Shown: positions 2,397-18,412 of the stretch, piece after piece
How positions within the stretch are numbered: position 1 is the stretch's first letter
Layout of the letters: each line of letters opens with the position of its first letter
Origin: a virus
DNA: 26,872 nt
IMG/VR virus record: IMGVR_UViG_3300049207_000057
Span: 1-26,872 of that record
Reading direction: 5' to 3' (one strand)
Translations under genes and position numbers: made by a program
The notes under the pieces: generated by a model
What the model saw: only the letters and a program-made list of their open reading frames with translations
The model's database searches: none
Told to the model about the DNA's origin: nothing

Positions 2397-3824
2397 TTAA
2401 TTGTATTGAAATCTACGCACCATTTTAGGCATAGCTTTAGCTGCTTGGATTTGGACTATTTTGATCGGATCAAATTCCCAATACGCTAATAAGGTAGACA
2501 TCACGTCATCGTCATGGAAACCTCTCGCAGCGCCTGCCCCTTGCTGGACTGCATCATCGTTCCATAGGAAAGTCTTCATTTCTTCAATTGTTTTCCGGTC
2601 ATATATCCTAGGCTTGCGTTGTCTAAGTAATTTCTGGAAATGTTGAATGAGTTGTTGTTTAGTTTCCCAACTCATCCGAAAGCCTAATTTTTCGGTTTCT
2701 TTGTCTTCCTTGTAGTCCAGTTGCTTCCTACGGTAAACTTTCAGGTCGCGGATCTCTCGTATTAGGGCTGCCCCGGCGGCGTTACTCTCTGGCACGATCA
2801 AAGGTTTGCGATACTTGTAATATAGGAACTTCACTTTGTCCGAAAGGGCCATGATTGGGACTTTGCCGTTAAACTTTGCTACTTTCTTGCCGTCAAAGGA
2901 TACAACCGAGATGGAACTCGGGTCAACAATGCCCTCGGAAGGGTCCACGCCCATGCGATATTCTGTATTCCGCGGTTCTTCGTAAATTTCACAGCCTTCT
3001 TCGATCTTGAGCGGGGGCTTACAATGCATTTCCAACTCCTTAATGTGTTCCTTAGCAAAGACGGATCCCTTCAAGAGGACATCGGTCGTCCACTCTCCCT
3101 TCACGAACCGGCGCACGTAATCTTCTCCCATCGCTTCCTGCTTCCGAAGATAATCTTCCGGTAAGTTAGCCGCGTTGTCGTACATGGAAGACTGATAGAG
3201 CTTATGCCCCGGTAACGGGTTGGCCACAAATTGATCATACGCCCAGAAGTTCGCCGGGTTACAGGTAGAATTCCCTTGCCGCATAGGTACATCATTCCTC
3301 CTAAGACGAGAATTCAACACCTCAATGACGGCATATTCTACTTCTTCCAACTGATCGATGAAATAAGCTCCCAGGTTGAGACTCTTCAACTTCTGTTGCG
3401 CCTTCTTTATGTCCGCCACCCCGCCACTTTGCATCGCATCCAGGCCAAAAAGAATGATCTGGCTTCCGTTATTGAAGTTGATCAACCCATCCTTGACCCG
3501 GTGTTCGTACCAACCCGGTGGCATAAGGTCAAACAACTCCGGCAACACCGCCCGATCAATATCACTTAAAGTCTTACGTCCTAATAGAATCCTGTTTCCT
3601 GGGAAACATTTTACAAACAAGATTAGTTTTATATAAAGTGCCAGAGACTTACCCGAACCGAACCCTCCAGCGTTCAAACAATAGTCACTCTTAAGGTCAG
3701 AAATGAACTCACTCTGAATAGGGTTAAACTTGTACAGCTTCCGGTTGAGTGTGATCTCCTGAATTTTCTTCCCAGACAGAAGTTCCTCCCCCAACTTAAC
3801 CCATTCACTTTTATATTGACTCAT
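2397..3824 (-). CDS. terL: Terminase large subunit
   Basis: A 475-residue packaging motor: an ATPase that pumps DNA into the capsid, with a nuclease that cuts the concatemer. The Walker A motif GGFGSGKS is at residues 53-60, a Walker B-like FIDQLEE at about 155-161, and a coupling-type TCNP segment at 187-190. The C-terminal RNase H-fold nuclease shows acidic residues D294 (GVDPSEG), E346 (VPES) and the HDDD at 437-440. The length is normal for the family. The start overlaps a 17-codon upstream frame as ATGA. A structured element sits after its stop. Small subunit and a hairpin-rich region lie upstream. Confidence 0.95.
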   Translation of the reverse strand: MSQYKSEWVKLGEELLSGKKIQEITLNRKLYKFNPIQSEFISDLKSDYCLNAGGFGSGKSLALYIKLILFVKCFPGNRILLGRKTLSDIDRAVLPELFDLMPPGWYEHRVKDGLINFNNGSQIILFGLDAMQSGGVADIKKAQQKLKSLNLGAYFIDQLEEVEYAVIEVLNSRLRRNDVPMRQGNSTCNPANFWAYDQFVANPLPGHKLYQSSMYDNAANLPEDYLRKQEAMGEDYVRRFVKGEWTTDVLLKGSVFAKEHIKELEMHCKPPLKIEEGCEIYEEPRNTEYRMGVDPSEGIVDPSSISVVSFDGKKVAKFNGKVPIMALSDKVKFLYYKYRKPLIVPESNAAGAALIREIRDLKVYRRKQLDYKEDKETEKLGFRMSWETKQQLIQHFQKLLRQRKPRIYDRKTIEEMKTFLWNDDAVQQGAGAARGFHDDDVMSTLLAYWEFDPIKIVQIQAAKAMPKMVRRFQYN

Positions 3825-3874
3825 ATGTTATTTAAATTCAGACAGTACTCTCCCCTTGACTTATTCTCTTTCAT
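3821..3874 (-). CDS. 17-residue leader ORF coupled to the large terminase
   Basis: A short frame (MKENKSRGEYCL...) begins about six bases after the predicted transcription start of the terminase promoter, and its TGA overlaps the terminase ATG as ATGA. The terminase start itself lacks a Shine-Dalgarno sequence, so translation of this leader may bring ribosomes to it. The peptide need have no function of its own. Chance occurrence of so short a frame cannot be excluded. Confidence 0.35.
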   Translation of the reverse strand: MKENKSRGEYCLNLNNI

Positions 3875-3886
3875 ATGGTGTTCATA

Positions 3887-3916
3887 TTTATAGTATGTGT
3901 AGATGGGTTATATCAA
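3887..3916 (-). promoter_or_regulatory. Sigma70-like promoter of the large terminase
   Basis: TTGATA (3916-3911) and TATAAA (3892-3887) are separated by 18 bp on the minus strand. The predicted start lies near 3880, just ahead of the 17-codon leader frame. It is the best promoter match between the two terminase genes. Confidence 0.55.
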
Positions 3917-4316
3917 CAATTCACCACTATTCTCGACTAGACCACCCTCCCCCCGTGTCGCACAATCTACATTGTAGACACCACTTACGCCTTGTGGTGT
4001 AAGGGTATTTAAACAATCGTAAATAATCACACTCGATATTAGATTACTAATATTCTCGTGTGTATGTGGTAGTGTTTAACTCCGTATATAAAATATACTC
4101 CGTTGTAGTATAACTCTTAAGAACTAATTCACTACGCCTCACGGCTTGAACTCCTATTGATAGGATATTACTAAAGGCGTTATGTTTTAAAAGCATTGTC
4201 CTGTTTGGTGTCAGTTGTTTGCCCTTTACTCCAGCCTTGACTGGACGATAGGAACGGCGAGTTTCACCGCGCTTTTAAATTTTACCTCTTTATTCTCCTA
4301 CGTCCTGTCCACAAGT

Positions 4317-4335
4317 AAATACCTGGGGATAACTC
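4317..4335 (-). repeat. 19-bp direct repeat, copy 1, containing an AGTTATCCCCA motif
   Basis: The plus-strand 19-mer AAATACCTGGGGATAACTC is identical to positions 15543-15561, about 11 kb away. It includes the 11-base operon-head motif (4324-4334). Both copies are at non-coding boundaries, which argues for a protein-binding site. Confidence 0.7.
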
Positions 4336-4349
4336 CTTTCCTCTATTTG

Positions 4350-4379
4350 TTAACACCCTTACTTAGCGTTACGGATGAT
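4350..4379 (+). promoter_or_regulatory. Possible promoter of the rightward gene
   Basis: TTAACA (4350-4355) and GATGAT (4374-4379) are spaced by 18 bp. The predicted start near 4386 would leave a leader of about nine bases before the ATG at 4395. The -10 match is moderate (four of six). Confidence 0.35.
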
Positions 4380-4394
4380 ATATACTTCATCTTA

Positions 4395-4592
4395 ATGGAT
4401 TCTGATGGCCTTAAAACTGATTTAAAACGAGAGAAAAACCCACATGCTGTTGCAATGGGTCATTTAGGTGGCATAGCACGATCTAAGAGGTTGACTAAAG
4501 AACGCATGCGAGAGATATCCCTACATGCTATATCAGTACGCTGGCAGAATAAACGAGACAATGAGGAACTCCGTATTACTTACTCGGATTAG
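4395..4592 (+). CDS. Small GGxAR-motif protein, probable DNA-binding, on the opposite strand
   Basis: A 65-residue rightward gene. Its centre reads HAVAMGHLGGIARSKRLT, followed by an amphipathic helix ending in ARW-like SVRWQNK. This matches a widespread family of short basic bacterial and phage proteins of the pattern AxGxxGGxAR-x-LT-...-RW, usually thought to bind DNA. The frame is open back to 4215, but that extension is hydrophobic low-quality sequence crossing the repeat motif, so I start at 4395, behind a plausible promoter. It converges on the small terminase and the two ends overlap by 17 bases. An isolated rightward gene between terminase genes looks like a moron. Confidence 0.65.
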   Translation: MDSDGLKTDLKREKNPHAVAMGHLGGIARSKRLTKERMREISLHAISVRWQNKRDNEELRITYSD

Positions 4593-4953
4593 CGATCACC
4601 ACCAACACTTTCTCCTCGCTCTCCATTGGCCTATTATCAGGCTCAATCTTGTCCAAGGCAATCTTGATAGCTGCATTTCTGGCATTACGGTCAGGTCTAT
4701 CCTGCCCTTCTTGCTTAATGTTGTCGATCAAATAATCAGCTAGTTCGCTGATCTTCATCTTGGCCGTGAACTCGTCCTTGAATACACTCTGGATAGCCTG
4801 GTAGGTCTTAGAGCGCTCTATTTGAGTAACATGTTGCACACCTTTATACCCAGCCACAATCTGCGCCTCCTTTTTAGTCTTACCCTGGTGCACAGCCAAG
4901 GCATACTTCACTATCTTACTGCTTGGGTTCAGTTTTTTTACTTTTGTCCTCAT
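4576..4953 (-). CDS. terS: Terminase small subunit
   Basis: A 125-residue protein that should recognise the packaging site and hand DNA to the large subunit. Residues 14-50 contain the family's DNA-binding pattern: KYALAVHQGKTKKEAQ, then AGY and VTQIERSKTYQ. A helical oligomerisation region follows (about 65-110). Its length is typical. The ATG at 4953 lacks a clear ribosome binding site and the gene overlaps the preceding one by 38 bases. It faces the rightward small gene tail to tail. The 750 bases separating it from the large subunit are unusual, because the two genes are normally adjacent. Confidence 0.85.
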   Translation of the reverse strand: MRTKVKKLNPSSKIVKYALAVHQGKTKKEAQIVAGYKGVQHVTQIERSKTYQAIQSVFKDEFTAKMKISELADYLIDNIKQEGQDRPDRNARNAAIKIALDKIEPDNRPMESEEKVLVVIANPSK

Positions 4954-5107
4954 TTAATATAGTTCGATAATAACACACCCTACAAACTTCAGTGAACCTT
5001 AATAACTTCGACCTTGTTAAACTATTAAAATTAGGGTTCTTGAGTACCTTCAAACACACCCTACACCTCTCTCGCTTATCACTATGTGGTATATCCCAGA
5101 TATTCAT
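4916..5107 (-). CDS. Small protein with two CxxC knuckles (zinc-binding candidate)
   Basis: A 63-residue protein with CRVC at residues 15-18 and CRVC again at 42-45, the spacing of a zinc ribbon, followed by a Lys-rich tail. It probably binds one zinc ion and may bind nucleic acid or act as an adaptor. The ATG at 5107 overlaps the stop of the membrane-protein gene as ATGA, which is why a longer open frame to 5221 is not used. It overlaps the small terminase by 38 bases at its end. No specific family recognised. Confidence 0.65.
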   Translation of the reverse strand: MNIWDIPHSDKRERCRVCLKVLKNPNFNSLTRSKLLRFTEVCRVCYYRTILNEDKSKKTEPKQ

Positions 5108-5265
5108 GCGGCAATAGCGTCCACAAAACAAAAGAAGGAAACGCAAGCGAGGCCGACCCAGAAGTTCCATATAAACCAAGGTACTAGGAGGAACGCTAGG
5201 GCCACGCTTAAAGGAAACCATTGAATATTATGCCAGAACTCCTTTAATTTATTATTCTTTACCAT
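5104..5265 (-). CDS. Small membrane protein, two probable helices
   Basis: A 53-residue protein with a basic start (MVKNNKLKEF) followed by two hydrophobic stretches rich in Trp, Phe, Val and Ala, at about residues 16-31 and 34-50. It should sit in the cytoplasmic membrane, N-terminus inside. Function is unknown; holin-like roles are possible, although better holin candidates lie in the lysis module. I took the ATG at 5265, overlapping the previous gene by 14 bases; one at 5298 is also open. Neither has a clear ribosome binding site. Confidence 0.55.
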   Translation of the reverse strand: MVKNNKLKEFWHNIQWFPLSVALAFLLVPWFIWNFWVGLACVSFFCFVDAIAA

Positions 5266-5425
5266 AATATTGTTCGATTTTAGTAATAAACTCCTCATCT
5301 TCTACATGGTAAGGGTCATCTCTAAATACGTTGCCGATTAATTGAGCTAAGCGCAGATGTGGATGTTCGTTCCAAACATTCCATAGCCTTGTTATTATTG
5401 GTTGGATGCGTTCTTTTTTTCTCAT
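5252..5425 (-). CDS. Conserved-looking 57-residue phage protein
   Basis: The protein begins MRKKERIQPII and then follows a pattern I have seen in small phage proteins: a Trp-rich helix, HPHLRLAQLIGNVF, then DPYHVEDEEFITKIEQYYG. In such proteins the LRL-QLI and DPxxVEDEE segments recur, but no biochemical role is known to me. A good ribosome binding site AAAGGAG lies just before the ATG, rather close to it. Its end overlaps the membrane-protein gene by 14 bases. Confidence comes from composition, the start signal and fit in the tiled operon. Confidence 0.7.
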   Translation of the reverse strand: MRKKERIQPIITRLWNVWNEHPHLRLAQLIGNVFRDDPYHVEDEEFITKIEQYYGKE

Positions 5426-5450
5426 TCTCCTTTAATTTTAGTTAATCTAT

Positions 5451-5825
5451 TCATTTTGAATTTTGGGTATAATGTTTATTTATTATTTGAGCGATATGGT
5501 CGGTTAATCTTTCCCTGGCATCTTCTATTGCTTGTTTTGTCGGCCAATTTATTACTACGCTATAAAACTGGTCTGTAACTATATGGGTAAATTCGTGAAT
5601 CAATCTACGCTCGGCATCTAACTTATTTTTTTGCCAGTCGTTTAGGTATTTTTCACTATATAAAATCTTTGCATCTAGGTATGGGTAATTGAATTGTGAA
5701 GCTAAATATCTATCTTTATCCAAATCCTTTTCTATTTTAAGGTGATATTTTTCAATAAAAAGAACGGCTTTATATTTGTCGTACATTTCCTCTATCCATT
5801 CTATGAGTTGTTTTTCTTCCCTCAT
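5451..5825 (-). CDS. Small zinc metallopeptidase-like protein (HEFTH motif)
   Basis: A 124-residue protein with HEFTH at residues 77-81, the HExxH signature of zinc metallopeptidases, at the end of a predicted helix, and a second acidic helix EDARERLTDHIA (101-112) where E105 could be the third ligand, as in gluzincin-type enzymes. The small size resembles ImmA/SprT-like or other minimal peptidases. The substrate is unknown. A proper ribosome binding site (AAGGAA) precedes the ATG, which overlaps the previous stop as ATGA. It could be an inactive fold relative, but the motif is intact. Confidence 0.6.
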   Translation of the reverse strand: MREEKQLIEWIEEMYDKYKAVLFIEKYHLKIEKDLDKDRYLASQFNYPYLDAKILYSEKYLNDWQKNKLDAERRLIHEFTHIVTDQFYSVVINWPTKQAIEDARERLTDHIAQIINKHYTQNSK

Positions 5826-5989
5826 TGTGGTTCCTTTTTAACAGTTACTATTCTAATATCGCCTGTATCTAAGTCCATCCTATCTATTATCTTCTGTACT
5901 TCCTTACGGTGCCATCGCATAAACCAATCGCCCGCCCATTTGCCTCTCACGTTTAGTTTTAGCAGTACCCACCAAATTATGTTATACAT
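5822..5989 (-). CDS. 55-residue protein of unknown function with Trp-rich N-terminus
   Basis: The protein has a hydrophobic, Trp-rich beginning (MYNIIWWVLLKL), then a basic middle (WFMRWHRKEVQKIIDRM) and a short acidic and basic end. It may attach to the membrane by its N-terminus. The stop overlaps the next gene as ATGA and the ATG overlaps the end of the preceding gene by 8 bases, with a weak AGAG-type binding site. I recognise no family; the support is continuous tiling and plausible protein composition. Confidence 0.55.
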   Translation of the reverse strand: MYNIIWWVLLKLNVRGKWAGDWFMRWHRKEVQKIIDRMDLDTGDIRIVTVKKEPQ

Positions 5990-6143
5990 TTTTCTCTTTA
6001 AGGTTAGCTTTTAAGTATTCTTCGTCGAGGTAAAGGGTTATAGCCCGATTCTGAATTTCGTGAAGAATATTATCGCTATATGTTCCTGTTAAATTCGCCA
6101 CTATCGTATCTTCTATTTGTTTTATTCTTTCACTTGGTTTCAT
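5982..6143 (-). CDS. 53-residue helical protein of unknown function
   Basis: A short acidic and basic helical protein (MKPSERIKQIEDT...). The frame is open to 6221, but the ATG at 6143 overlaps the previous gene by only 14 bases and is more in line with neighbouring junctions. No motif or ribosome binding site is apparent. Function unknown. Confidence 0.5.
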   Translation of the reverse strand: MKPSERIKQIEDTIVANLTGTYSDNILHEIQNRAITLYLDEEYLKANLKEKNV

Positions 6144-6435
6144 CTGTTTTAGGGTTAGCGAGGAGTAATAGGAGGAAATCTTCAAGTCGTGCAATCTCTT
6201 CGTAAACTTCAGCTTCGCCATTCCAATGCATTAAAAGAAATTCCGCAAACGCTTTATTTATCTTCTGCTTCACTTCCCCTTCTATAAAGGCGGCGTGGGA
6301 GGAGAGGGTGGAGCGGAGGAAAGATTTTATTCTATCGTGTTGTAAGTCACCTGCGTATATTCCGTCCATTGGGGAAAAGTATAGTCTTGAAAACTCATTT
6401 ATATATTCATTTATCTTCTCGTTATTTGTTGGCAT
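6130..6435 (-). CDS. 101-residue helical protein of unknown function
   Basis: Almost entirely helix-forming, with alternating charged and aromatic residues (INEYINEFSRLYFSP, then EGEVKQKINKAFAEFLLMHW). The end carries a Leu-rich helix (LEDFLLLLLANP). It may form a small helical bundle or bind another phage protein. No family recognised. The ATG at 6435 has no obvious ribosome binding site; a 45-base gap with no gene separates it from the upstream gene. Confidence 0.55.
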   Translation of the reverse strand: MPTNNEKINEYINEFSRLYFSPMDGIYAGDLQHDRIKSFLRSTLSSHAAFIEGEVKQKINKAFAEFLLMHWNGEAEVYEEIARLEDFLLLLLANPKTDETK

Positions 6436-6480
6436 GGGAATTAGTAGTTAGCAAACTCTTTATGATACTTAATGCAAGCT

Positions 6481-6684
6481 TTAAGGTAATACTTGTCTAA
6501 AGAAATTCAGCCAGCCTAATTTATTTTTTTCGACCTTTATTTCTTGATACTTAGGTAAAGGTTCGGCTGATCGGCTAGCCCATTCGTGAATCATTTCTTT
6601 CTGGACATGGCGCTCTAGTATCTCTCTGGCATCTTGACCCCAGCCGCCATATTCTTTTAATGATATTCGTTTAGTTGGTTTCAT
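6481..6684 (-). CDS. 67-residue protein of unknown function
   Basis: A soluble, charged protein with GGWGQDAREILERHVQ near the start and a Trp-Phe-rich C-terminus. No domain recognised. The ATG overlaps the nuclease-like gene's stop as ATGA, so the two are probably made together. After its stop another reading frame continues for about 17 sensible-looking codons (KYYLKACIKYHKEFANY) without a start codon, which might mark a frameshift or simply be chance. Confidence 0.55.
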   Translation of the reverse strand: MKPTKRISLKEYGGWGQDAREILERHVQKEMIHEWASRSAEPLPKYQEIKVEKNKLGWLNFFRQVLP

Positions 6685-7073
6685 AACTTCTTGTACTCCT
6701 GTAATAAATTAATGTAATGATCATAGGCTTTGACAGTTTTACTTCGATCGGTCAGGATTTGATTTACGTACTCGTTGCCTTCGATTTTTCGCATGTTTTC
6801 TATGAAAATGGCTCCCATCCCACCCTTGTTGATATTGCAAGAGTAACATTGCGGCCGAAGGAGCCTCAGGTCGTACTTGAGATACGCTCCAAGTGACGCC
6901 TTTGATATTAGATGTCCGGTGTGCCAATTTATAGCAATCAACTGCCGAGCCCCGCAGGTATAGCATGTATTCCCATACTTCGCTCTTATTATTCTTTTGC
7001 ATTCTTGCCATATAGCTCGTTGAATTTTACTAATACTCTGCTTAGACTTCTTTTTTAAACGGCTGCGTTTCAT
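6681..7073 (-). CDS. NinG/Rap-like recombination nuclease
   Basis: A 130-residue protein with a basic N-terminus (KRSRLKKKSK), C37 and C40 (CYTC), HTGH at 51-54 and a second pair C76/C79 in PQCYSCN followed by INKGGMGA. This is the pattern of lambda NinG (Rap) proteins, which bind branched DNA and act in phage recombination; related HNH-type nucleases use the same zinc-stabilised core. It probably cuts or binds recombination intermediates. Its start overlaps the preceding stop as TAATG. Length is a little shorter than NinG. Alternative: a generic HNH endonuclease. Confidence 0.75.
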   Translation of the reverse strand: MKRSRLKKKSKQSISKIQRAIWQECKRIIRAKYGNTCYTCGARQLIAINWHTGHLISKASLGAYLKYDLRLLRPQCYSCNINKGGMGAIFIENMRKIEGNEYVNQILTDRSKTVKAYDHYINLLQEYKKL

Positions 7074-7357
7074 TAGTACAGATTTTTACTTTCATTTTCT
7101 AGTAATCTCAGCATTGTGTTACTGGCAGACATTTTCTTCTCAATACTTTTGAGTTTTAACTTGATCGTAGTCATCAATATTCCCTCATCGGTCCTCTCCC
7201 ACGCCCGTTCCGTTGCTGTATCGCTCTTGTAATTTTCTCTGGCTTGCCTAAAGTGTTCCGCTCGTTTTCGTATCAAATCTGCGAAGATACCTGTGTAGCG
7301 GGAATACTCCTCAGCCATACCTACCCGCTCTTCGGCAATTTGATGCGGGGTCTTCAT
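7073..7357 (-). CDS. Helical (coiled-coil-like) 94-residue protein
   Basis: Nearly all helix, with many Glu, Arg, Ala and Lys and heptad-like Leu and Met spacing in its second half (LKLKSIEKKMSASNTMLRLLE). No family recognised. The ATG at 7357 gives an ATGA overlap with the winged-helix gene; a longer start at 7372 would overlap by 19 bases. Being sandwiched between a DNA-binding protein and a recombination nuclease suggests a DNA-metabolism helper, which is only a guess. Confidence 0.6.
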   Translation of the reverse strand: MKTPHQIAEERVGMAEEYSRYTGIFADLIRKRAEHFRQARENYKSDTATERAWERTDEGILMTTIKLKLKSIEKKMSASNTMLRLLENESKNLY

Positions 7358-7581
7358 GCGTAACTCTGCCACTTATACCAGACACTTCTAACCTTTCGAC
7401 CTTTACGTTCATCCCGCTCTAGGTAGCGCTCTTCATGTAACTCTCTTAGCCTCCTAGAAGCGTTGGATGCCTTGTAACCTGCATGCATAGCCAGCTCTTC
7501 GATGTCTCTACCGTTAATCCATAACTCGGGTCTCTTAGCAAAGTATTGAGTTATACGTTCGCGCAGGCTTTGTTCGCTCAT
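7354..7581 (-). CDS. Winged-helix DNA-binding protein
   Basis: A 75-residue protein whose whole length fits a winged helix: helix 1 SLRERITQYFAKRP, helix 2 GRDIEELAMHAG, recognition helix KASNASRRLRELHEE, then a basic wing ERDERKGRKVRSVWYKW. It is likely a small transcriptional regulator or replication-associated DNA-binding protein. The start overlaps a 15-codon leader frame as ATGA, and no strong ribosome binding site is present, so translation may rely on coupling. Confidence 0.7.
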   Translation of the reverse strand: MSEQSLRERITQYFAKRPELWINGRDIEELAMHAGYKASNASRRLRELHEERYLERDERKGRKVRSVWYKWQSYA

Positions 7582-7625
7582 ATCTTGGTTTTATCTATAA
7601 ACTCTTTAAACATCTTGTTTCTCAT
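7578..7625 (-). CDS. 15-residue leader ORF coupled to the winged-helix gene
   Basis: A short frame (MRNKMFKEFIDKTKI) ends in ATGA at the start of the winged-helix gene, the same arrangement as the leader before the large terminase. It may only serve to deliver ribosomes. So short a frame could be accidental. Confidence 0.3.
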   Translation of the reverse strand: MRNKMFKEFIDKTKI

Positions 7626-7644
7626 TTTGGGGTTGGAATAGTGT

Positions 7645-7809
7645 TTACAGTCGTTTAGGGGATGTTGGGAAACCTACAGTACTGAAGTAAATTGATTTCT
7701 TGTTCCAACCGGTTGTGTCTGATAATTCTTGGATAAGTCTTTTACGCTCTTCATTCTTAGCGGGTTTTTTTATTTTAAATCTCTCTAAAAAACCTTTTTC
7801 TATATCCAT
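7645..7809 (-). CDS. 54-residue basic protein of unknown function
   Basis: The protein runs MDIEKGFLERFKIKK, then NEERKRLIQELSDTTGW and ends KKSIYFSTVGFPTSPKRL. The T-G-W-x-K-K-S-I-Y-F pattern resembles small helix-turn-helix or helicase-loader-like phage proteins, but I cannot name a family. It starts a run of genes after a gene-free, hairpin-containing stretch, with an AT-rich CTATACTAA just before the ATG. No Shine-Dalgarno sequence. Confidence 0.6.
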   Translation of the reverse strand: MDIEKGFLERFKIKKPAKNEERKRLIQELSDTTGWNKKSIYFSTVGFPTSPKRL

Positions 7810-7923
7810 TTAGTATAGATTTAACATTACTAAGTTAGACTCCCGACTTTACATCCCCCAACTCTATACGAAATCATTTGCTTGCTTTAACTCACCATCT
7901 AATGAAAAAAGCAAACACAAGTT

Positions 7924-7995
7924 AATTTCAGTACAGATGGGGTCGCTGGTTGTCAGTCGGCGACATTGCCAGCACTTTGAATCTGTACTTAAATT
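7924..7995. other. Long imperfect inverted repeat (hairpin or cruciform)
   Basis: Positions 7924-7938 pair with 7981-7995 in 14 of 15 positions, the core being AGTACAGAT/ATCTGTACT. Inside, GCTGG (7945-7949) pairs with CCAGC (7969-7973), and TGTC with GACA. It lies in the 200-base gap between the 36-residue gene and the 54-residue gene, with a T6 run further along the minus strand. It could be a terminator-like RNA structure, a small RNA or a protein-recognition cruciform. The rest of 7810-8011 contains no gene that I can support. Confidence 0.6.
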
Positions 7996-8011
7996 TGTAG
8001 GCCCAAGTTAT

Positions 8012-8122
8012 TCAGGAGATGCGCCTATTGCTCCTATGATATTCGATTATCAATTTAGAGAACTGGTTGGCCCAATCTATCCAACTTTGCTGGGATAATT
8101 CTCTTGAGTTTAACGTCATCAT
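8012..8122 (-). CDS. 36-residue protein of unknown function
   Basis: A short frame starting MMTLNSRELSQQ, followed by an amphipathic helix with Trp, Phe and Ile on one face (SWIDWANQFSKLIIEYHRS). It starts 12 bases after the stop of the OB-fold gene. There is no ribosome binding site, and either of two adjacent ATGs could be used. Composition suggests a real peptide, but length limits confidence. Confidence 0.4.
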   Translation of the reverse strand: MMTLNSRELSQQSWIDWANQFSKLIIEYHRSNRRIS

Positions 8123-8134
8123 TGGACGAACGAG

Positions 8135-8635
8135 CTAAAACGGTGGTGGACTATTAAAGTCTTTATCATTCAAGAACCAGTTGCGCCATTTAACTATCTC
8201 TTCTTGCGTCATAGATTCTGTTAAGTCTAATCCTCTTGCAATTCTATCTTTCATTAGAGTCGTCGCTACCAACACCGCATCTCTTTGCGCCGAGGCTAAC
8301 TTGATACTCTCTTCCTTCCGATCCATTGTCTTTTCTATCCCTTTCTCAGTTCTCTCTTGAGCTTTTTCCACCGATTTCTCGATAGTAGCCCGGGAGTTAT
8401 TGAAACTTGGCTTAGGCTTGTCTGCCACCTCATTTGATTTCAAGTTCCAAAAAAGCCCATTCTGTTCTAATTCCCCATCGACAGTATGCCCCGGGGCGAT
8501 GTCCGCGAAGTGCGGGAAGAAGGAGAATATGTTTACATCAGTCTTCTTACCAAAGGGGTCCTCGATGGAGAGTTTCTTCATCGGCTTGCCCAGCTTGGTT
8601 GTTTTATTTTCTACCCAAAGTACTTTATAGATCAT
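8135..8635 (-). CDS. OB-fold nucleic-acid-binding protein, SSB-like
   Basis: A 166-residue protein. Residues 1-72 look like an OB fold: alternating strands (IYKVLWVENKTTKLGKPMKKLSI), a glycine turn and a second half with PHFADIAPGHTVDGELEQNGLFWNL. The middle is a charged Lys/Glu helix, and the last 50 residues hold helices (RDAVLVATTLM, EEIVKWRNWF). The extreme end, with acidic residues and then PPPF, recalls the acidic PF tip by which bacterial SSB recruits partners. It probably binds single-stranded DNA in replication or recombination. The start overlaps the 20-residue gene as ATGA. No strict SSB signature, so the name stays general. Confidence 0.6.
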   Translation of the reverse strand: MIYKVLWVENKTTKLGKPMKKLSIEDPFGKKTDVNIFSFFPHFADIAPGHTVDGELEQNGLFWNLKSNEVADKPKPSFNNSRATIEKSVEKAQERTEKGIEKTMDRKEESIKLASAQRDAVLVATTLMKDRIARGLDLTESMTQEEIVKWRNWFLNDKDFNSPPPF

Positions 8636-8694
8636 ATAAGTGCCAGTACTCCGCCTATTACTATTCCGACTACAAACATTGTTATTTTTTTCAT
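8632..8694 (-). CDS. 20-residue membrane microprotein
   Basis: A frame of 20 codons beginning MKKITM followed by one hydrophobic segment with two glycines, enough for one short membrane span. It is fixed by overlaps at both ends: TAATG with the preceding 28-residue gene and ATGA with the OB-fold gene. Such double coupling is unlikely by accident in a tiled operon, though so short a frame can arise by chance. Function unknown. Confidence 0.45.
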   Translation of the reverse strand: MKKITMFVVGIVIGGVLALI

Positions 8695-8780
8695 TAGTGT
8701 ATATATACTGCTAGTGTTGCTAATGCGACTATTATTCCTATTCCGATCCAATTCAATATCTCATTAGTTATTGTTTTCAT
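8694..8780 (-). CDS. 28-residue membrane microprotein
   Basis: Begins MKTITNEILNW, then an IGIGIIVALATLAV-type hydrophobic helix and a short end. One membrane span is predicted. It overlaps the 81-residue gene by 17 bases and the 20-residue gene as TAATG. No family recognised; small phage membrane peptides can be holins, antiholins or inhibitors of host membrane proteins. Confidence 0.5.
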   Translation of the reverse strand: MKTITNEILNWIGIGIIVALATLAVYIH

Positions 8781-9009
8781 AAGGATCAATTCCGTATAAA
8801 TTTTTGTTAATATTCCCTACCATTTTAGTTACATTCTCGAAAGAGAAATCGTTCGCCAACCGTTCTCGATTTATCAGCCGATATGCTGCCATGAGTCGGT
8901 CTTCCTTATAACACTCACTGCAATCACTGTGATAACTCTGGTGATAGATGTGCAGTTTGTAGGTATCGATTATTTCCCCATCTATCAATTCACTTTTCAT
9001 TTTTGCCAT
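8764..9009 (-). CDS. 81-residue protein with a CxxC motif, first gene after the structured RNA
   Basis: A soluble protein with HSDCSECY at about residues 27-34, many Tyr, His and Asn, and an acidic Asn-rich end. One CxxC plus nearby His could bind a metal, but a full zinc site is not evident. It is the first gene downstream of the structured region 9010-9435, and a closing GTCCGC/GCGGAC stem ends about a dozen bases before its ATG, so that RNA may control it. No Shine-Dalgarno sequence. Alternative ATG three codons in. Confidence 0.6.
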   Translation of the reverse strand: MAKMKSELIDGEIIDTYKLHIYHQSYHSDCSECYKEDRLMAAYRLINRERLANDFSFENVTKMVGNINKNLYGIDPYENNN

Positions 9010-9435
9010 ATACTTGCTTAGTCCGCCTTACCTAGAACCCTTAGGGGGAAACTAGATATTGCGGACAAAGAACCTAAAGGTTTTTAATGCGTTACTGGCT
9101 AGGAGCCGGTGAGAGGTTTCTTCAATGCTTGCTAAGGAGTGAGCCAGCCGGAGCCAAGTCATCCTCAAAACATTTGCGTCAATATAAATTGATTCTCACC
9201 AGTTTCCAACCAGCAACTGTTTCGACCAACTAGACTGTTGGTAAGAGAAAAAGAAATGAAAAACACCATTCCGCCGTTATCGTAAAATGGTATTTCTCAT
9301 TTCCACCCAACGTTGGTAATACTATTTACCAGTCAGGGAATATATGTTGTGGGCCAGCCTTATAGGCTGAACCCATCATATATTGGAAACTTTTACGATA
9401 ACCGATTTCTTGACTTCCCTTTCCAAGGAGCTAGT
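9010..9435 (-). ncRNA. Large structured RNA or very long structured leader
   Basis: No gene is visible over 426 bases downstream of a good promoter. The minus-strand transcript folds into many elements: a hairpin 9384-9339 (AATATATG outer arms, TGGG and CAGCCT inner arms); GGTAA/TTACC at 9328-9313; an unbroken 18-bp stem 9303-9286 with 9270-9253; a branched domain around 9250-9190; CTGGCT/AGCCAG at 9147-9095; and GTCCGC/GCGGAC closing a terminal hairpin at about 9066-9020. The loop of the 18-bp stem (9285-9276) is complementary over 10 bases to 9402-9393, a pseudoknot. I recognise no known class; not a tRNA, tmRNA or RNase P by its motifs. Confidence 0.65.
9253..9303 (-). ncRNA. 18-bp stem with pseudoknotted loop inside the structured RNA
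   Basis: Bases 9253-9270 pair with 9286-9303. Sixteen pairs are Watson-Crick. The other two (9260 with 9296, 9264 with 9292) are A-C and C-A on the plus strand but U-G and G-U on the minus strand, so only the minus transcript forms an unbroken helix. The 15-base loop carries TTACGATAAC, complementary to GTTATCGTAA at 9402-9393. Confidence 0.7.
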
Positions 9436-9441
9436 ACTTAG

Positions 9442-9471
9442 ATTATATTAAATTACCAACACCCTTGTCCA
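9442..9471 (-). promoter_or_regulatory. Sigma70-like promoter of the structured RNA
   Basis: TGGACA (9471-9466) and a perfect TATAAT (9447-9442) are separated by 18 bp on the minus strand. Predicted transcription start is near 9435. A copy of AGTTATCCACA lies 9 bp upstream of the -35. Confidence 0.65.
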
Positions 9472-9480
9472 GCCCCTAGC

Positions 9481-9491
9481 TGTGGATAACT
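9481..9491 (-). promoter_or_regulatory. AGTTATCCACA operon-head motif
   Basis: One of seven copies. It overlaps the TAG stop of the regulator gene and precedes the structured-RNA promoter. The core equals a perfect DnaA box. Confidence 0.65.
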
Positions 9492-10008
9492 ATTTAACCA
9501 ACGGGTAGCAGCTATACCAGGTGTATACGTTTTTGACGTCCTTTCTGAGAGCCTTAGCAATCTGCCTAAAACTGAGATTTCCTTGGTCTTTTAAGAACTT
9601 TACCTTTCTTACCAACTCTTCGTTTACGCGTTTGCCGGGTTTTTGCCTTTTCATCATGGGAATTATAACTGAATTACCAACATCTGTCAAGTTAATAACT
9701 CCCCCATCTTCCAGCAGTCTTGGATTAAGGCACTCTACCTTATTAGCGTGAAAGTAGCGGAAGAATCCGCGCATAGCCTGCATGAACTTCTTTGCAGTGT
9801 AAGGGGTGGCATTTATCCTAATGTCATTGTACACCTCCTGTATATCCCCTATTATGATTTGAGAGATGTTGGTGTAGTTAAATCTTGAAACAAAGTCATT
9901 AAGAACTTTCTTGTGTTCCAGAGCACTCCAATATGAAAACTTCTCTTTATAGGAGATATATTCCTCTATCTGATACTGTAATTTAGTTTTAATTTTGAAA
10001 AATATCAT
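9490..10008 (-). CDS. Recombinase core-binding domain fused to a helix-turn-helix
   Basis: A 172-residue protein. Residues about 13-97 match the SAM-like core-binding domain that precedes the catalytic domain of tyrosine recombinases: helices around EEYISYKEKFSYWSALEHKK and YTAKKFMQAMRGFFRYFHANK. No catalytic Arg-His-Arg-Tyr domain follows. Instead there is a linker and a helix-turn-helix at about 128-166 (LSFRQIAKALRKDVKNVYTWY). It should bind DNA but cannot recombine it; a regulator or accessory factor is likely. The frame is open to 10212, but promoters and a 5' hairpin lie inside that extension, so I start at 10008. No Shine-Dalgarno sequence there. Confidence 0.65.
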   Translation of the reverse strand: MIFFKIKTKLQYQIEEYISYKEKFSYWSALEHKKVLNDFVSRFNYTNISQIIIGDIQEVYNDIRINATPYTAKKFMQAMRGFFRYFHANKVECLNPRLLEDGGVINLTDVGNSVIIPMMKRQKPGKRVNEELVRKVKFLKDQGNLSFRQIAKALRKDVKNVYTWYSCYPLVK

Positions 10009-10042
10009 AACAAAAGGCCCGCGTGTTACCGTGGACCCTTTG

Positions 10043-10066
10043 GACACTCGTTCTACAACAAGCGTC
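10043..10066 (-). promoter_or_regulatory. 5'-terminal mRNA hairpin of the regulator gene
   Basis: On the minus strand GACGCTTGTT (10066-10057) pairs with AACGAGTGTC (10052-10043) around a GTAG loop: ten pairs, two of them G-U in this strand only. The predicted transcription start of the promoter at 10073-10101 is about 10066, so the mRNA would begin with the hairpin, a common way to slow decay. Confidence 0.55.
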
Positions 10067-10072
10067 AGACTA

Positions 10073-10101
10073 ATTATACCAAGTCTGGGCCCCATTGGTA
10101 A
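10073..10101 (-). promoter_or_regulatory. Promoter proximal to the regulator gene
   Basis: TTACCA (10101-10096), 17 bp, then a perfect TATAAT (10078-10073) preceded by TGG, on the minus strand. It leaves a leader of about 58 bases before the ATG at 10008. Confidence 0.6.
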
Positions 10102-10154
10102 CACTCTTCCTTCGAAGACAACGGGCTTATTTAATTGGATGGCTATGAGACGGC

Positions 10155-10182
10155 ATACTACGCGGAATTTTCCGTATGTCAA
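10155..10182 (-). promoter_or_regulatory. Upstream promoter with an inverted repeat in its spacer
   Basis: TTGACA (10182-10177) and TAGTAT (10160-10155), spacer 16 bp. The spacer holds CGGAA-AA-TTCCG (10174-10163), a likely operator where a bound protein would block RNA polymerase. Confidence 0.5.
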
Positions 10183-10231
10183 GAGGGCCACTTTTGGTAA
10201 GTGTTCTAGCATAGTAAATATATTTTAGCAT

Positions 10232-10261
10232 AAAAAAATGGGGTGACACTAGGATCACCCC
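10232..10261 (-). terminator. Rho-independent terminator after the 41-residue gene
   Basis: GGGGTGA (10261-10255 region) pairs perfectly with TCACCCC (10246-10240), followed on the minus strand by T, then A, then seven T. The stem begins within the stop region of the zinc-ribbon gene. Confidence 0.85.
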
Positions 10262-15546: not shown

Positions 15547-15561
15547 ACCTGGGGATAACTC
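15543..15561 (-). repeat. 19-bp direct repeat, copy 2, containing an AGTTATCCCCA motif
   Basis: Identical to 4317-4335. The motif itself is at 15550-15560, at the TGA stop of the short fibre gene and ahead of the promoter of the next one. Confidence 0.7.
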
Positions 15562-15829
15562 AAGATTGCCACGTATTGCCATCCCACCATTTTAGGGCTC
15601 CGCCTCCAGTGCTGCTTGGCGAGAGAGACGGTGAGATGGAGGGTGATAGCGAAGCACTGGGGCTGTTAGATGGGGAAACTGATGGTGATAGAGATGCCGA
15701 AGGTGAAGCCGACGGAGAGAGTGAGGGTGAAATTGAAGGACTTTCCGAACTGACTGCTTCCAGTAAAATACCACTGCCGTCTTCTTGGAGGATTTTAGAA
15801 CCATCTTCTTGTAGTAAATATGAGGCCAT
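15560..15829 (-). CDS. Short Ser-Pro-repeat fibre protein
   Basis: An 89-residue protein in three parts: an N-terminal double repeat (LLQEDGSKILQEDGSGILLE), a Ser-Pro-Ser-x repeat block, and a C-terminal LKWWDGNTW unit that also ends the larger neighbour. The parts look like a miniature of modular fibre proteins, perhaps an attachment or capping subunit. Its ATG overlaps the stop of the larger gene as TAATG, so the two are co-translated. Ser-rich repeats are probably extended and could be glycosylated. Confidence 0.65.
   Translation of the reverse strand: MASYLLQEDGSKILQEDGSGILLEAVSSESPSISPSLSPSASPSASLSPSVSPSNSPSASLSPSISPSLSPSSTGGGALKWWDGNTWQS
15612..15750 (-). repeat. Ser-Pro-Ser-x coding repeat, block 3
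   Basis: About 11 units of a 12-bp coding repeat in the short fibre gene, purine-rich on the plus strand. Boundaries are approximate. Confidence 0.75.
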
Positions 15830-17892
15830 TATGCTTGTACCCAGGAACTACCGTCCCAGTATTTTAAGGCTTTTAATATCCAGCTCGAACCGTTCCAATA
15901 TTTTAATCTATCAGTGGTCGGCGCGGCGGAAGGTGAAATGCTTGGGCTTAAAGATGCACTGGGACTTTGAGAAGGGCTTATTGAAGGAGAAACGGACAGT
16001 GAGAGACTCGCACTCGGAGATTGACTCGGAGAGATGCTAGGAGAAATAGATGGGGAATGAGAAGGACTTAAGGAGGGCGAAAAACTGGCTGAAGGACTCT
16101 GGGACGGACTAATACTAGGGGATAAAGATGGCGAGAGGGATGGTGAAAGAGATGGGCTTAACGAGGCACTCGGACTCTGAGATGGAGAAATACTAGGACT
16201 TATTGAAGGGCTAATAGAGGGAGAGCGACTTGGTGATAAAGACGCGGAGGGACTTTGGGAGGGAGAAATAGACGGACTTAAACTAGGGCTTATTGATGCG
16301 GAAGGCGACTGACTCGGAGATATGGACGGTGACAATGAAGCTGATGGGGAGGCCGAGGGGCTAATACTTGGTGAGATACTTGGACTTAAGGAGGGCGAAA
16401 GCGATGCCGAGGGACTCTGACTAGGACTAATGGATGGGCTAAAGGAAGCTGATGGACTGACAGATGGTGAAATACTAGGTGAGATAGAGGGTGAAAGTGA
16501 GGGCGACAAACTGGCACTTGGGCTGACTGAGGGCGACAAAGATGCTGAAGGTGATACCGATGGGGAAAGGGATGCACTCGGCGAGGCAGAGGGTGAAATT
16601 GAAGGAGATAGTGAGGCGGAGCTGGCTGACGGAATATAGGCAACAATGATTCCACATTCATATAGACCGACTGTCGTAACAGTTGCATCAGTAAGAATTC
16701 CTATGTCTGTGTTTCCAGTAGGATAGGTACCGGAGTTTGCCACTTTCATAAATAAAGTAGCAGCACTTGTTAAAGAAATATTTGTATCTACGTTAGCAAC
16801 TCTAATTTTTGCTGTTTCACTTGTTACAGAACTTGCATCTACCCAACCCATGAAGTCCACTATCGTGGCGCTAGATATATCTATATCTCCAGTAGAAGTA
16901 GATTCAATAGAATATTCCTCAGTTTTTATGCTGCCAGCATTGATCACTGACCATCCGTTAGTTGTACTCAAAGCCCGTTCGTTTACTTGCGGTGAATGGC
17001 CGGAACCATATCCTGAACCAGCCGCACCTATTTGAGTAGTAAATTCAACAAGAGTCCCATTAGCGTTTGGTCGTTTAGCTGTAACCCATATATTTCCTGG
17101 ATCGGTGAGAGAGGCGGAATTGTCCACATAGTGGTCGGAAGAACGAAAATCTAATGTTGTGTCAGAATTTCCGTTTCCTATCCTTAAAGCGGACGTACCT
17201 ACTACTGCTACTGTCCCATTTGTTACTGAAATATCCGAACTTCCATTTTTAAATAGTTCAAATCTATTATGGGTACCGTCAGTGATGGTGTAGGCGAGAG
17301 AGATGCGGTACCAAATCCCGGTTGACAAGGTAGATCCATCAATACCTATTTGGGCAGTACCACCATTCCATAATTGAAGCACACCTCCAGTTGTAACTCG
17401 GATATTTACAGATTGCGCGTCTGCGCCGGTCCTTAATCCTATAATATTTGCAGTTGCACTACCGAAAGAAACGAAATATATATAACAACTGATTCTAGAA
17501 CCAGTATCACTAATTGTTCCAAATGCGGTCCTTACGATGTTTGGTGCGGATGGCGCATATTGAATAGATTTTAAATGATTTCCATTAACAAAATCCGTTG
17601 CTATAGTTGGAGTGCCAGAAATAGAAGTCCAAAATCCTCCCGCAGTCGTTAAAGCTACATTAAATGTTGCATCACCACCTGGTTCTAAAAATGTTGCTAT
17701 TGCTGGGGGTGGGCTTGGAGAAATACTGGGAGAGATACTTGGTGAGACGCTTGGAGATTTAGAAGGGCTTATAGAGGGGGATCTCGAAGGGCTTATAGAA
17801 GCTGAAGGGCTAGCTGAAGGGCTAGCTGAAGGTGAAAGAGATGCGGATGGAGATGCGGATGGAGATGCGGAGGGTGAAGCGGATTTAGCCAT
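15829..17892 (-). CDS. Large fibre with lectin-like domain and Ser-Pro-Ser-x stalk
   Basis: A 687-residue protein: a first SPSx block (about residues 5-63); a central Gly/Thr/Asn-rich, strand-rich region of some 360 residues that reads like one or two LamG/concanavalin-type domains (for example WYRISLAYTITDGTHNRFELF); a second SPSx block of roughly 235 residues; and a C-terminal pair of LKYWxGSSW units. The layout suggests a receptor-binding domain held on an extended stalk. The ATG at 17892 is used, not 17955, because it removes most overlap with the preceding gene. Function as fibre is inferred from architecture and position. Confidence 0.7.
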   Translation of the reverse strand: MAKSASPSASPSASPSASLSPSASPSASPSASISPSRSPSISPSKSPSVSPSISPSISPSPPPAIATFLEPGGDATFNVALTTAGGFWTSISGTPTIATDFVNGNHLKSIQYAPSAPNIVRTAFGTISDTGSRISCYIYFVSFGSATANIIGLRTGADAQSVNIRVTTGGVLQLWNGGTAQIGIDGSTLSTGIWYRISLAYTITDGTHNRFELFKNGSSDISVTNGTVAVVGTSALRIGNGNSDTTLDFRSSDHYVDNSASLTDPGNIWVTAKRPNANGTLVEFTTQIGAAGSGYGSGHSPQVNERALSTTNGWSVINAGSIKTEEYSIESTSTGDIDISSATIVDFMGWVDASSVTSETAKIRVANVDTNISLTSAATLFMKVANSGTYPTGNTDIGILTDATVTTVGLYECGIIVAYIPSASSASLSPSISPSASPSASLSPSVSPSASLSPSVSPSASLSPSLSPSISPSISPSVSPSASFSPSISPSQSPSASLSPSLSPSISPSISPSASPSASLSPSISPSQSPSASISPSLSPSISPSQSPSASLSPSRSPSISPSISPSISPSQSPSASLSPSLSPSLSPSLSPSISPSQSPSASFSPSLSPSHSPSISPSISPSQSPSASLSLSVSPSISPSQSPSASLSPSISPSAAPTTDRLKYWNGSSWILKALKYWDGSSWVQA
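15923..16633 (-). repeat. Ser-Pro-Ser-x coding repeat, block 2 (about 710 bp)
   Basis: A 12-bp coding period for S-P-S-x, where x is A, I, L, V, Q, R, F or H, with higher-order units such as SPSISPSQSPSASLSP recurring. The plus strand is strongly purine-rich. Such arrays change length readily by slippage or recombination. Confidence 0.9.
17704..17880 (-). repeat. Ser-Pro-Ser-x coding repeat, block 1
   Basis: About 15 units of the same 12-bp period at the N-terminus of the large fibre gene, just after its start codon. Confidence 0.85.
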
Positions 17893-18412
17893 ATGGGTGT
17901 AAGTTAGGGATTTCTCCTTTGACGAGGAAATAATAAATGACTTCGGCACAACCACTTGCCTTATTCTGACCGACTTTCTTTAAACCTTTATAAGCGGACA
18001 TATCGGTGTGCAGACTGTTTACAATCAGGTAGTTAGATATTCTAGTTAGGTCTTTGACAAAGTCTTTATCCCCGACAAATTCACAGGGCTCAGCGTAGTC
18101 AGTGTAAAATATGTCGACGATGACACAATCAAATTCGGGGCAGGTTTTTACATATTCTCGAGCATCAGCCTGAATCAGAGTAACATCATATTTATTTTCA
18201 CAAGGTTCTATATCTACTGCTGTGATGGGGACATCGCCATAAAGAAGTCTAATTAAGCCAGCCACCGTGCCCCCGGCATAACCTAAGATTAATACATTCT
18301 TAGGCTTATATTGAGGCACCATATATATCCAATAAGCAAAAGTTAAATATGTAGTCGGGGGATAGGCCGAGTAAGAGTTGTTATTTTTATCTGACCAGAA
18401 TTTAATTTTCAT
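17885..18412 (-). CDS. Spermidine-synthase-like methyltransferase fold protein
   Basis: A 175-residue Rossmann-fold protein. VLILGYAGGTVAGLI (40-54) is the nucleotide-binding loop, ITAVDIEP (63-70) the acidic strand end, then LIQADAREYV and CVIVDIFYTDY. This order is typical of spermidine synthase-like enzymes and related SAM-dependent methyltransferases. It probably uses S-adenosylmethionine or decarboxylated SAM. As the last gene of the sugar cluster, it may methylate a sugar or other small group. Substrate unknown; shorter than full spermidine synthases, which lack is consistent with a lost N-terminal domain. Confidence 0.65.
   Translation of the reverse strand: MKIKFWSDKNNNSYSAYPPTTYLTFAYWIYMVPQYKPKNVLILGYAGGTVAGLIRLLYGDVPITAVDIEPCENKYDVTLIQADAREYVKTCPEFDCVIVDIFYTDYAEPCEFVGDKDFVKDLTRISNYLIVNSLHTDMSAYKGLKKVGQNKASGCAEVIYYFLVKGEIPNLHPYG

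Follow-up and report, generated by a model that had tools for sequence, protein, structure and literature searches.

The locus considered here raises the question of what is specified by a stretch of about 430 nt that lies between two reading frames of a phage, contains no gene of its own, and can be folded into many hairpins. The window, by which we mean the whole stretch of DNA analysed, is the 26,872-base IMG/VR virus record IMGVR_UViG_3300049207_000057, a phage from a metagenome. The minus strand carries all of the recognised genes, and features are on this strand unless stated otherwise. The gene order is portal-like, large terminase (2397–3824), small terminase, HNH endonuclease (6681–7073), a 166-aa gene (8135–8635), an 81-aa gene (8764–9009), the putative RNA, an integrase-like/HTH frame (9490–10011), and the lysis and tail region. 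The 81-aa gene, with its ATG at 9009, is the first after the RNA and belongs to no known family, having no match in Pfam and PHROGs searches; the 166-aa gene lies in the same presumed operon, and its product shares 34% identity with a protein of the related phage L097. A sequence-only reading had proposed that the stretch is a structured RNA of no recognised class, either a new phage RNA or an extreme leader controlling the 81-residue gene. On our analysis, the stretch very probably gives rise to an RNA with an elaborate fold, placed where a long gene transcript begins.

Several observations support a structured RNA. First, the stretch is free of genes as had been claimed, with no open reading frame of at least 50 aa on either strand of 9010–9440, the longest minus-strand frames within it being 34–38 codons. 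Secondly, the many hairpins seen by eye correspond to a strong computed fold: the domain at 9010–9437, whose predicted start is at about 9435–9438 and whose well-folded body ends near 9021, has a minus-strand RNAfold energy of −157.9 kcal/mol, with a z-score of −7.7 against dinucleotide shuffles (−4.6 for the plus strand). Its 200-nt core at 9201–9400 has a z-score of −12.1, the most extreme of 534 windows in a scan of the whole record with none other near it, and is likewise the top-ranked of about 17,900 windows taken from the present and related phages. Thirdly, the pairing is strand-biased. In the minus-strand fold, 20 pairs are G-U and A-C single mismatches are absent, whereas the plus-strand fold contains five A-C mismatches (0.9 ± 1.0 in shuffles), and the energy gap between the strands is −23.5 compared to −9.6 ± 5.7 in shuffles (z about −2.4). 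Together, the bias and the energy gap favour an RNA made from the minus strand with moderate strength, and it is to this extent that the earlier statement that selection acts on the minus-strand RNA is supported. We regard the RNA as real, strongly folded and probably transcribed; it belongs to no known family.

The center of the fold is a long helix whose 5′ arm (9286–9303) and 3′ arm (9253–9270), each of 18 nt, are 89% complementary; in the minus-strand fold it extends to 21 pairs (9304–9284 with 9272–9252, mean pair probability 0.97). The 18-bp stem was described in the sequence-only reading, and its two imperfect pairs indeed read G-U on the minus strand but A-C on the opposite one. A pairing of the loop with ten bases at 9393–9402 had also been proposed. 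The complementarity is present and somewhat longer, with a proposed loop strand at 9276–9287 perfectly complementary over 12 bases to an upstream strand at 9391–9402, separated by a gap of 103 nt; two of the 12 bases overlap the stem and ten are clear of it. No 12-base complement occurred anywhere in 400 dinucleotide shuffles, in which the maximum was 11. The helix itself does not form in the unconstrained minimum free energy structure; freeing both strands would cost about 4.5 kcal/mol, and the duplex would return about −10 to −14 kcal/mol, loop penalty excluded. We therefore regard the pseudoknot as a strong complement and an energetically plausible pairing, rather than a demonstrated helix. 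Hairpin A (9339–9384, pair probability 0.87–0.97) lies between the two strands as a separate element, in agreement with the earlier description. It is accompanied by hairpin B (9306–9337, 0.90–0.93), hairpin C (ACCAAC/GTTGGT, 9225–9242, 0.97), and a branched arm D (9091–9217, 0.85–0.98), which is also supported by inverted repeat I1 and is composed of 12-bp and 9-bp helices with inner hairpins. The last stable hairpin of the RNA, the 3′ hairpin F (GTCCGC/GCGGAC plus TATCTAG/CTAGGTA, 9021–9066, 0.99–1.00), stops 11 nt short of the ATG at 9009.

The promoter to which the earlier reading drew attention, here P2, is present at 9442–9471, with TGGACA (9471–9466) and TATAAT (9447–9442) separated by an 18-nt spacer, and matches the consensus at 11 of 12 positions. 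A second promoter, P1 (9690–9662, TTGACA-17-TATAAT), matches at all 12 and precedes a 55-aa HTH frame that begins immediately after it. This small frame lies inside a longer one of about 172 aa (9490–10011; 240 aa if read from 10212), which has a weak integrase-like match (PHROG_1, E 0.007) and weak, below cut-off helix-turn-helix matches at its C-terminus; of the listed 240-aa frame, roughly the first 68 codons are probably noncoding. We note that the adjoining segment at 10012–10230 is itself structured (z about −3.7) and follows a terminator at 10261–10240.

Just upstream of P2 (9481–9491) is a DnaA-box-like element, AGTTATCCACA, which also occurs on the minus strand at 2154, 11583 and 23823, with many more sites in L005–L095. 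The DnaA-box word TTATCCACA is over-represented in this phage family (54 copies, compared to a median of 10 for permuted words), and an exact TATAAT lies within 60 nt downstream of 16 of 51 unique family sites but upstream of only two. P2 belongs to a phage-wide promoter type, newly recognised in this analysis, in which AGTTATCCACA is located upstream of TATAAT. The recurrence of this oriented element, which contains a perfect DnaA-box word, might reflect host DnaA or a phage factor driving transcription. Among about 30 AGTTATCCACA-type promoters in the family, P2 alone precedes a long structured leader, with 438 nt to the first open reading frame and a z-score of −6.3 for 300 nt. Because only this one has such a leader, the device, if it is one, is peculiar to this phage, and we take the RNA to be accessory, confined to this phage or to a lineage close to it.

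The P1 and P2 spacers contain the same ten bases, GTTGGTAATT, at 9672–9681 and 9451–9460 respectively. The simplest reading of this common motif is that both are candidate operators, and that P1 and P2 likely share a repressor site. The window contains six copies of GTTGGTAA, five of which are located within 445 bp (9237–9681), on both strands. This GTTGGTAA/TTACCAAC cluster, which places two copies in promoter spacers, those of the two strongest promoters, forms a candidate operator set.

No known family accounts for the RNA, as the earlier reading had supposed. The window has no match to Rfam 15 at gathering thresholds, and at E-values up to 10 yields only long-hairpin miRNA-type and other matches far below threshold; ARAGORN finds no tRNA in the window. 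A tRNA, a tmRNA or a known ribozyme can be rejected on the basis of these Rfam and ARAGORN results. Homologues were sought in phages, plasmids, viral contigs and genome contigs by DNA, neighbouring proteins, terminase, covariance model and pseudoknot pattern, and none was found. DNA searches of phage and plasmid records gave chance-level matches only, and the neighbouring proteins (81, 240 and 166 aa) compared against viral contigs gave nothing beyond one distant relative of the 166-aa protein, at whose locus the structured element is of another kind, with terminator-like hairpins nearby. In L097, a different, strong but imperfect long hairpin of about 105 nt (3270–3375, plus strand; z −4.7 over 3225–3400) is located upstream of a 67-aa frame, and has no Rfam match. 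Neither blastn nor a covariance model built on 9253–9404 identified a homologue in 80 terminase-related loci and 35 whole virus records, most of the terminase relatives being short fragments from which the equivalent region is possibly missing. The sole weak covariance-model match, in L095, falls in coding sequence and was rejected, and the strong folds in the relative L090 correspond to a tRNA region and coding sequence and are not homologues. A scan for the pseudoknot pattern gave 44 matches, but in no case was the loop strand enclosed by a comparable stem. We therefore have a credible orphan phage RNA whose role is read from its surroundings alone and, as a single sequence, it stays a lead.

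These surroundings favour an operon leader. There are no minus-strand terminator-like sites from 9010 to 3800 (the scans are blind to Rho-dependent ends and RNA processing) and no strong minus-strand promoters between the RNA and the large terminase gene; promoter-like sites in 3800–8150 match at only 9 of 12 positions, and their total number is at chance level. With neither a terminator nor a strong promoter downstream, the RNA is most simply read as a leader that heads a long operon, and of the two earlier readings it is this one that is favoured. Direct hiding of the start codon of the 81-aa gene is not supported. The 5′ and 3′ ends of the RNA pair with a probability of 0.97 when it is folded alone, and this closing helix fades once coding sequence follows, a weakness that leaves occlusion of the start codon by it unsupported; in the fold model the AUG is about 60–80% unpaired with the leader present. 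Neither of the simple leader modes, translation-start control or a terminator, is therefore seen, and with the start codon largely free of pairing a simple translational block is less likely than an influence on elongation or stability, or the binding of a factor. The position of the RNA between a promoter and the first gene of an operon is like that of autoregulatory and riboswitch-type 5′ leaders; unlike these, it has no Rfam cis-regulatory match at gathering, its start codon is accessible in the model, and no expression platform is recognised. The put RNA elements of phage HK022, which are processive antitermination leaders, provide another comparison. As in the predicted transcript, a phage promoter that serves a long operon first yields a structured RNA; the put elements, however, are short hairpin elements of about 65 nt, and no relation in sequence or structure is seen.

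The explanation that we prefer, with confidence evenly balanced, is that a self-contained multi-helix domain forms the 5′ end, about 430 nt, of a long phage transcript and acts in cis as an operon leader. P2 would drive the minus-strand RNA, with a probably pseudoknotted domain forming at its 5′ end, and transcription would run on through the 81-aa gene, the membrane-peptide frames and the 166-aa gene towards the terminase genes. One DNA-binding protein, plausibly the adjacent HTH product, probably represses both P1 and P2 at GTTGGTAATT. We infer that the RNA most likely acts in cis, and it may stabilise the transcript, alter elongation through the long operon by put-like antitermination, or bind a factor that times expression. 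The fold, the promoter match, the motif common to both spacers and the lack of terminator-like sites are computed results, whereas transcription, the operator, and the action in cis with its mechanism are inferred. The leader explanation is weakened by the failure of the homologue searches, by the mostly accessible start codon, and by the other AGTTATCCACA-type promoters, none of which is followed by a long structured leader. Two frames of 28 and 20 aa, encoding tiny membrane peptides, are located at 8635–8780 between the 81-aa and 166-aa genes.

Phages offer few examples of large structured RNAs, most of them without a known function. It is possible, although we suggest this tentatively and think it somewhat doubtful, that the present RNA is the first representative of a novel class of phage RNA, large (about 430 nt) and pseudoknotted, expressed from a repressible promoter at the head of an operon leading to the DNA-packaging genes. 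An independent structured RNA for which the promoter is defined, an operator is likely and a specific operon lies downstream would provide a testable setting for the role of such RNAs.

A stand-alone noncoding RNA, processed out of the transcript or terminated inside it and acting in trans as a protein-binding scaffold or an RNA-only assembly, is the next best, although rather unlikely, alternative. Its models would be ROOL and GOLLD, ornate phage and prophage RNAs that are often, although not necessarily, near tRNA genes, with many GOLLD members exceeding 800 nt (PMC12286853). The present RNA resembles them in being phage-encoded, large, multi-helix and (as proposed) pseudoknotted, without a known protein partner; it differs in its length of about 430 nt, in matching none of their Rfam models, and in running into a gene. 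Its size, branching and pseudoknot are beyond the needs of a simple leader, it has its own promoter, and its folded body ends cleanly at 9021 with the short closing pairing of its ends. Nevertheless, the 3′ end has no terminator, the closing pairing fades in the longer transcript, and the tRNA island frequent with ROOL and GOLLD is absent.

The stretch could instead act as DNA, such as a cluster of repressor sites, an origin or a packaging region, with inverted repeats that fold as RNA only incidentally. The clustering of GTTGGTAA on both strands and the DnaA-box-like site adjoining the promoter are consistent with this, but that site is promoter-associated and recurs elsewhere in the genome and the family, and an operator needs neither a 21-bp stem nor a long-range 12-base complement. 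The imperfect pairs of the helices also argue for RNA, being G-U on the minus strand but A-C on the plus strand, which has five A-C mismatches against none, and we regard a DNA-level element as improbable. An antisense-like action in trans, in which the RNA would use its TTACCAAC segments to pair with GUUGGUAA sites in the mRNA of the adjacent HTH frame, is very improbable: hairpins B and C do hold 9–10 bases complementary to 9609 and 9674, in or just before the HTH frame, but the pairings are short, the segments are buried in stable hairpins, and operators in two promoter spacers explain the same repeats better. Least probable is an unrecognised ribozyme, intron, retron or other mobile-element RNA, as the complex, probably pseudoknotted fold and an HNH gene 2 kb away are offset by the failure of Rfam intron, ribozyme and retron models to match even at an E-value of 10, by the lack of a recognised reverse-transcriptase-like product among the predicted frames of the window (by inspection, with part of them searched against families), and by HNH relatives in other phages of the family where the RNA is not found.

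Elsewhere in the window, a second well-folded stretch without a long open reading frame (7810–8134) lies in the same presumed operon; it contains 9–10 bp stems, has a z-score of −6.3 for the 200-nt window at 7801–8000, and has no Rfam match. The tail-region proteins encoded at 15560–17955 contain long SPSxSPS low-complexity repeats.
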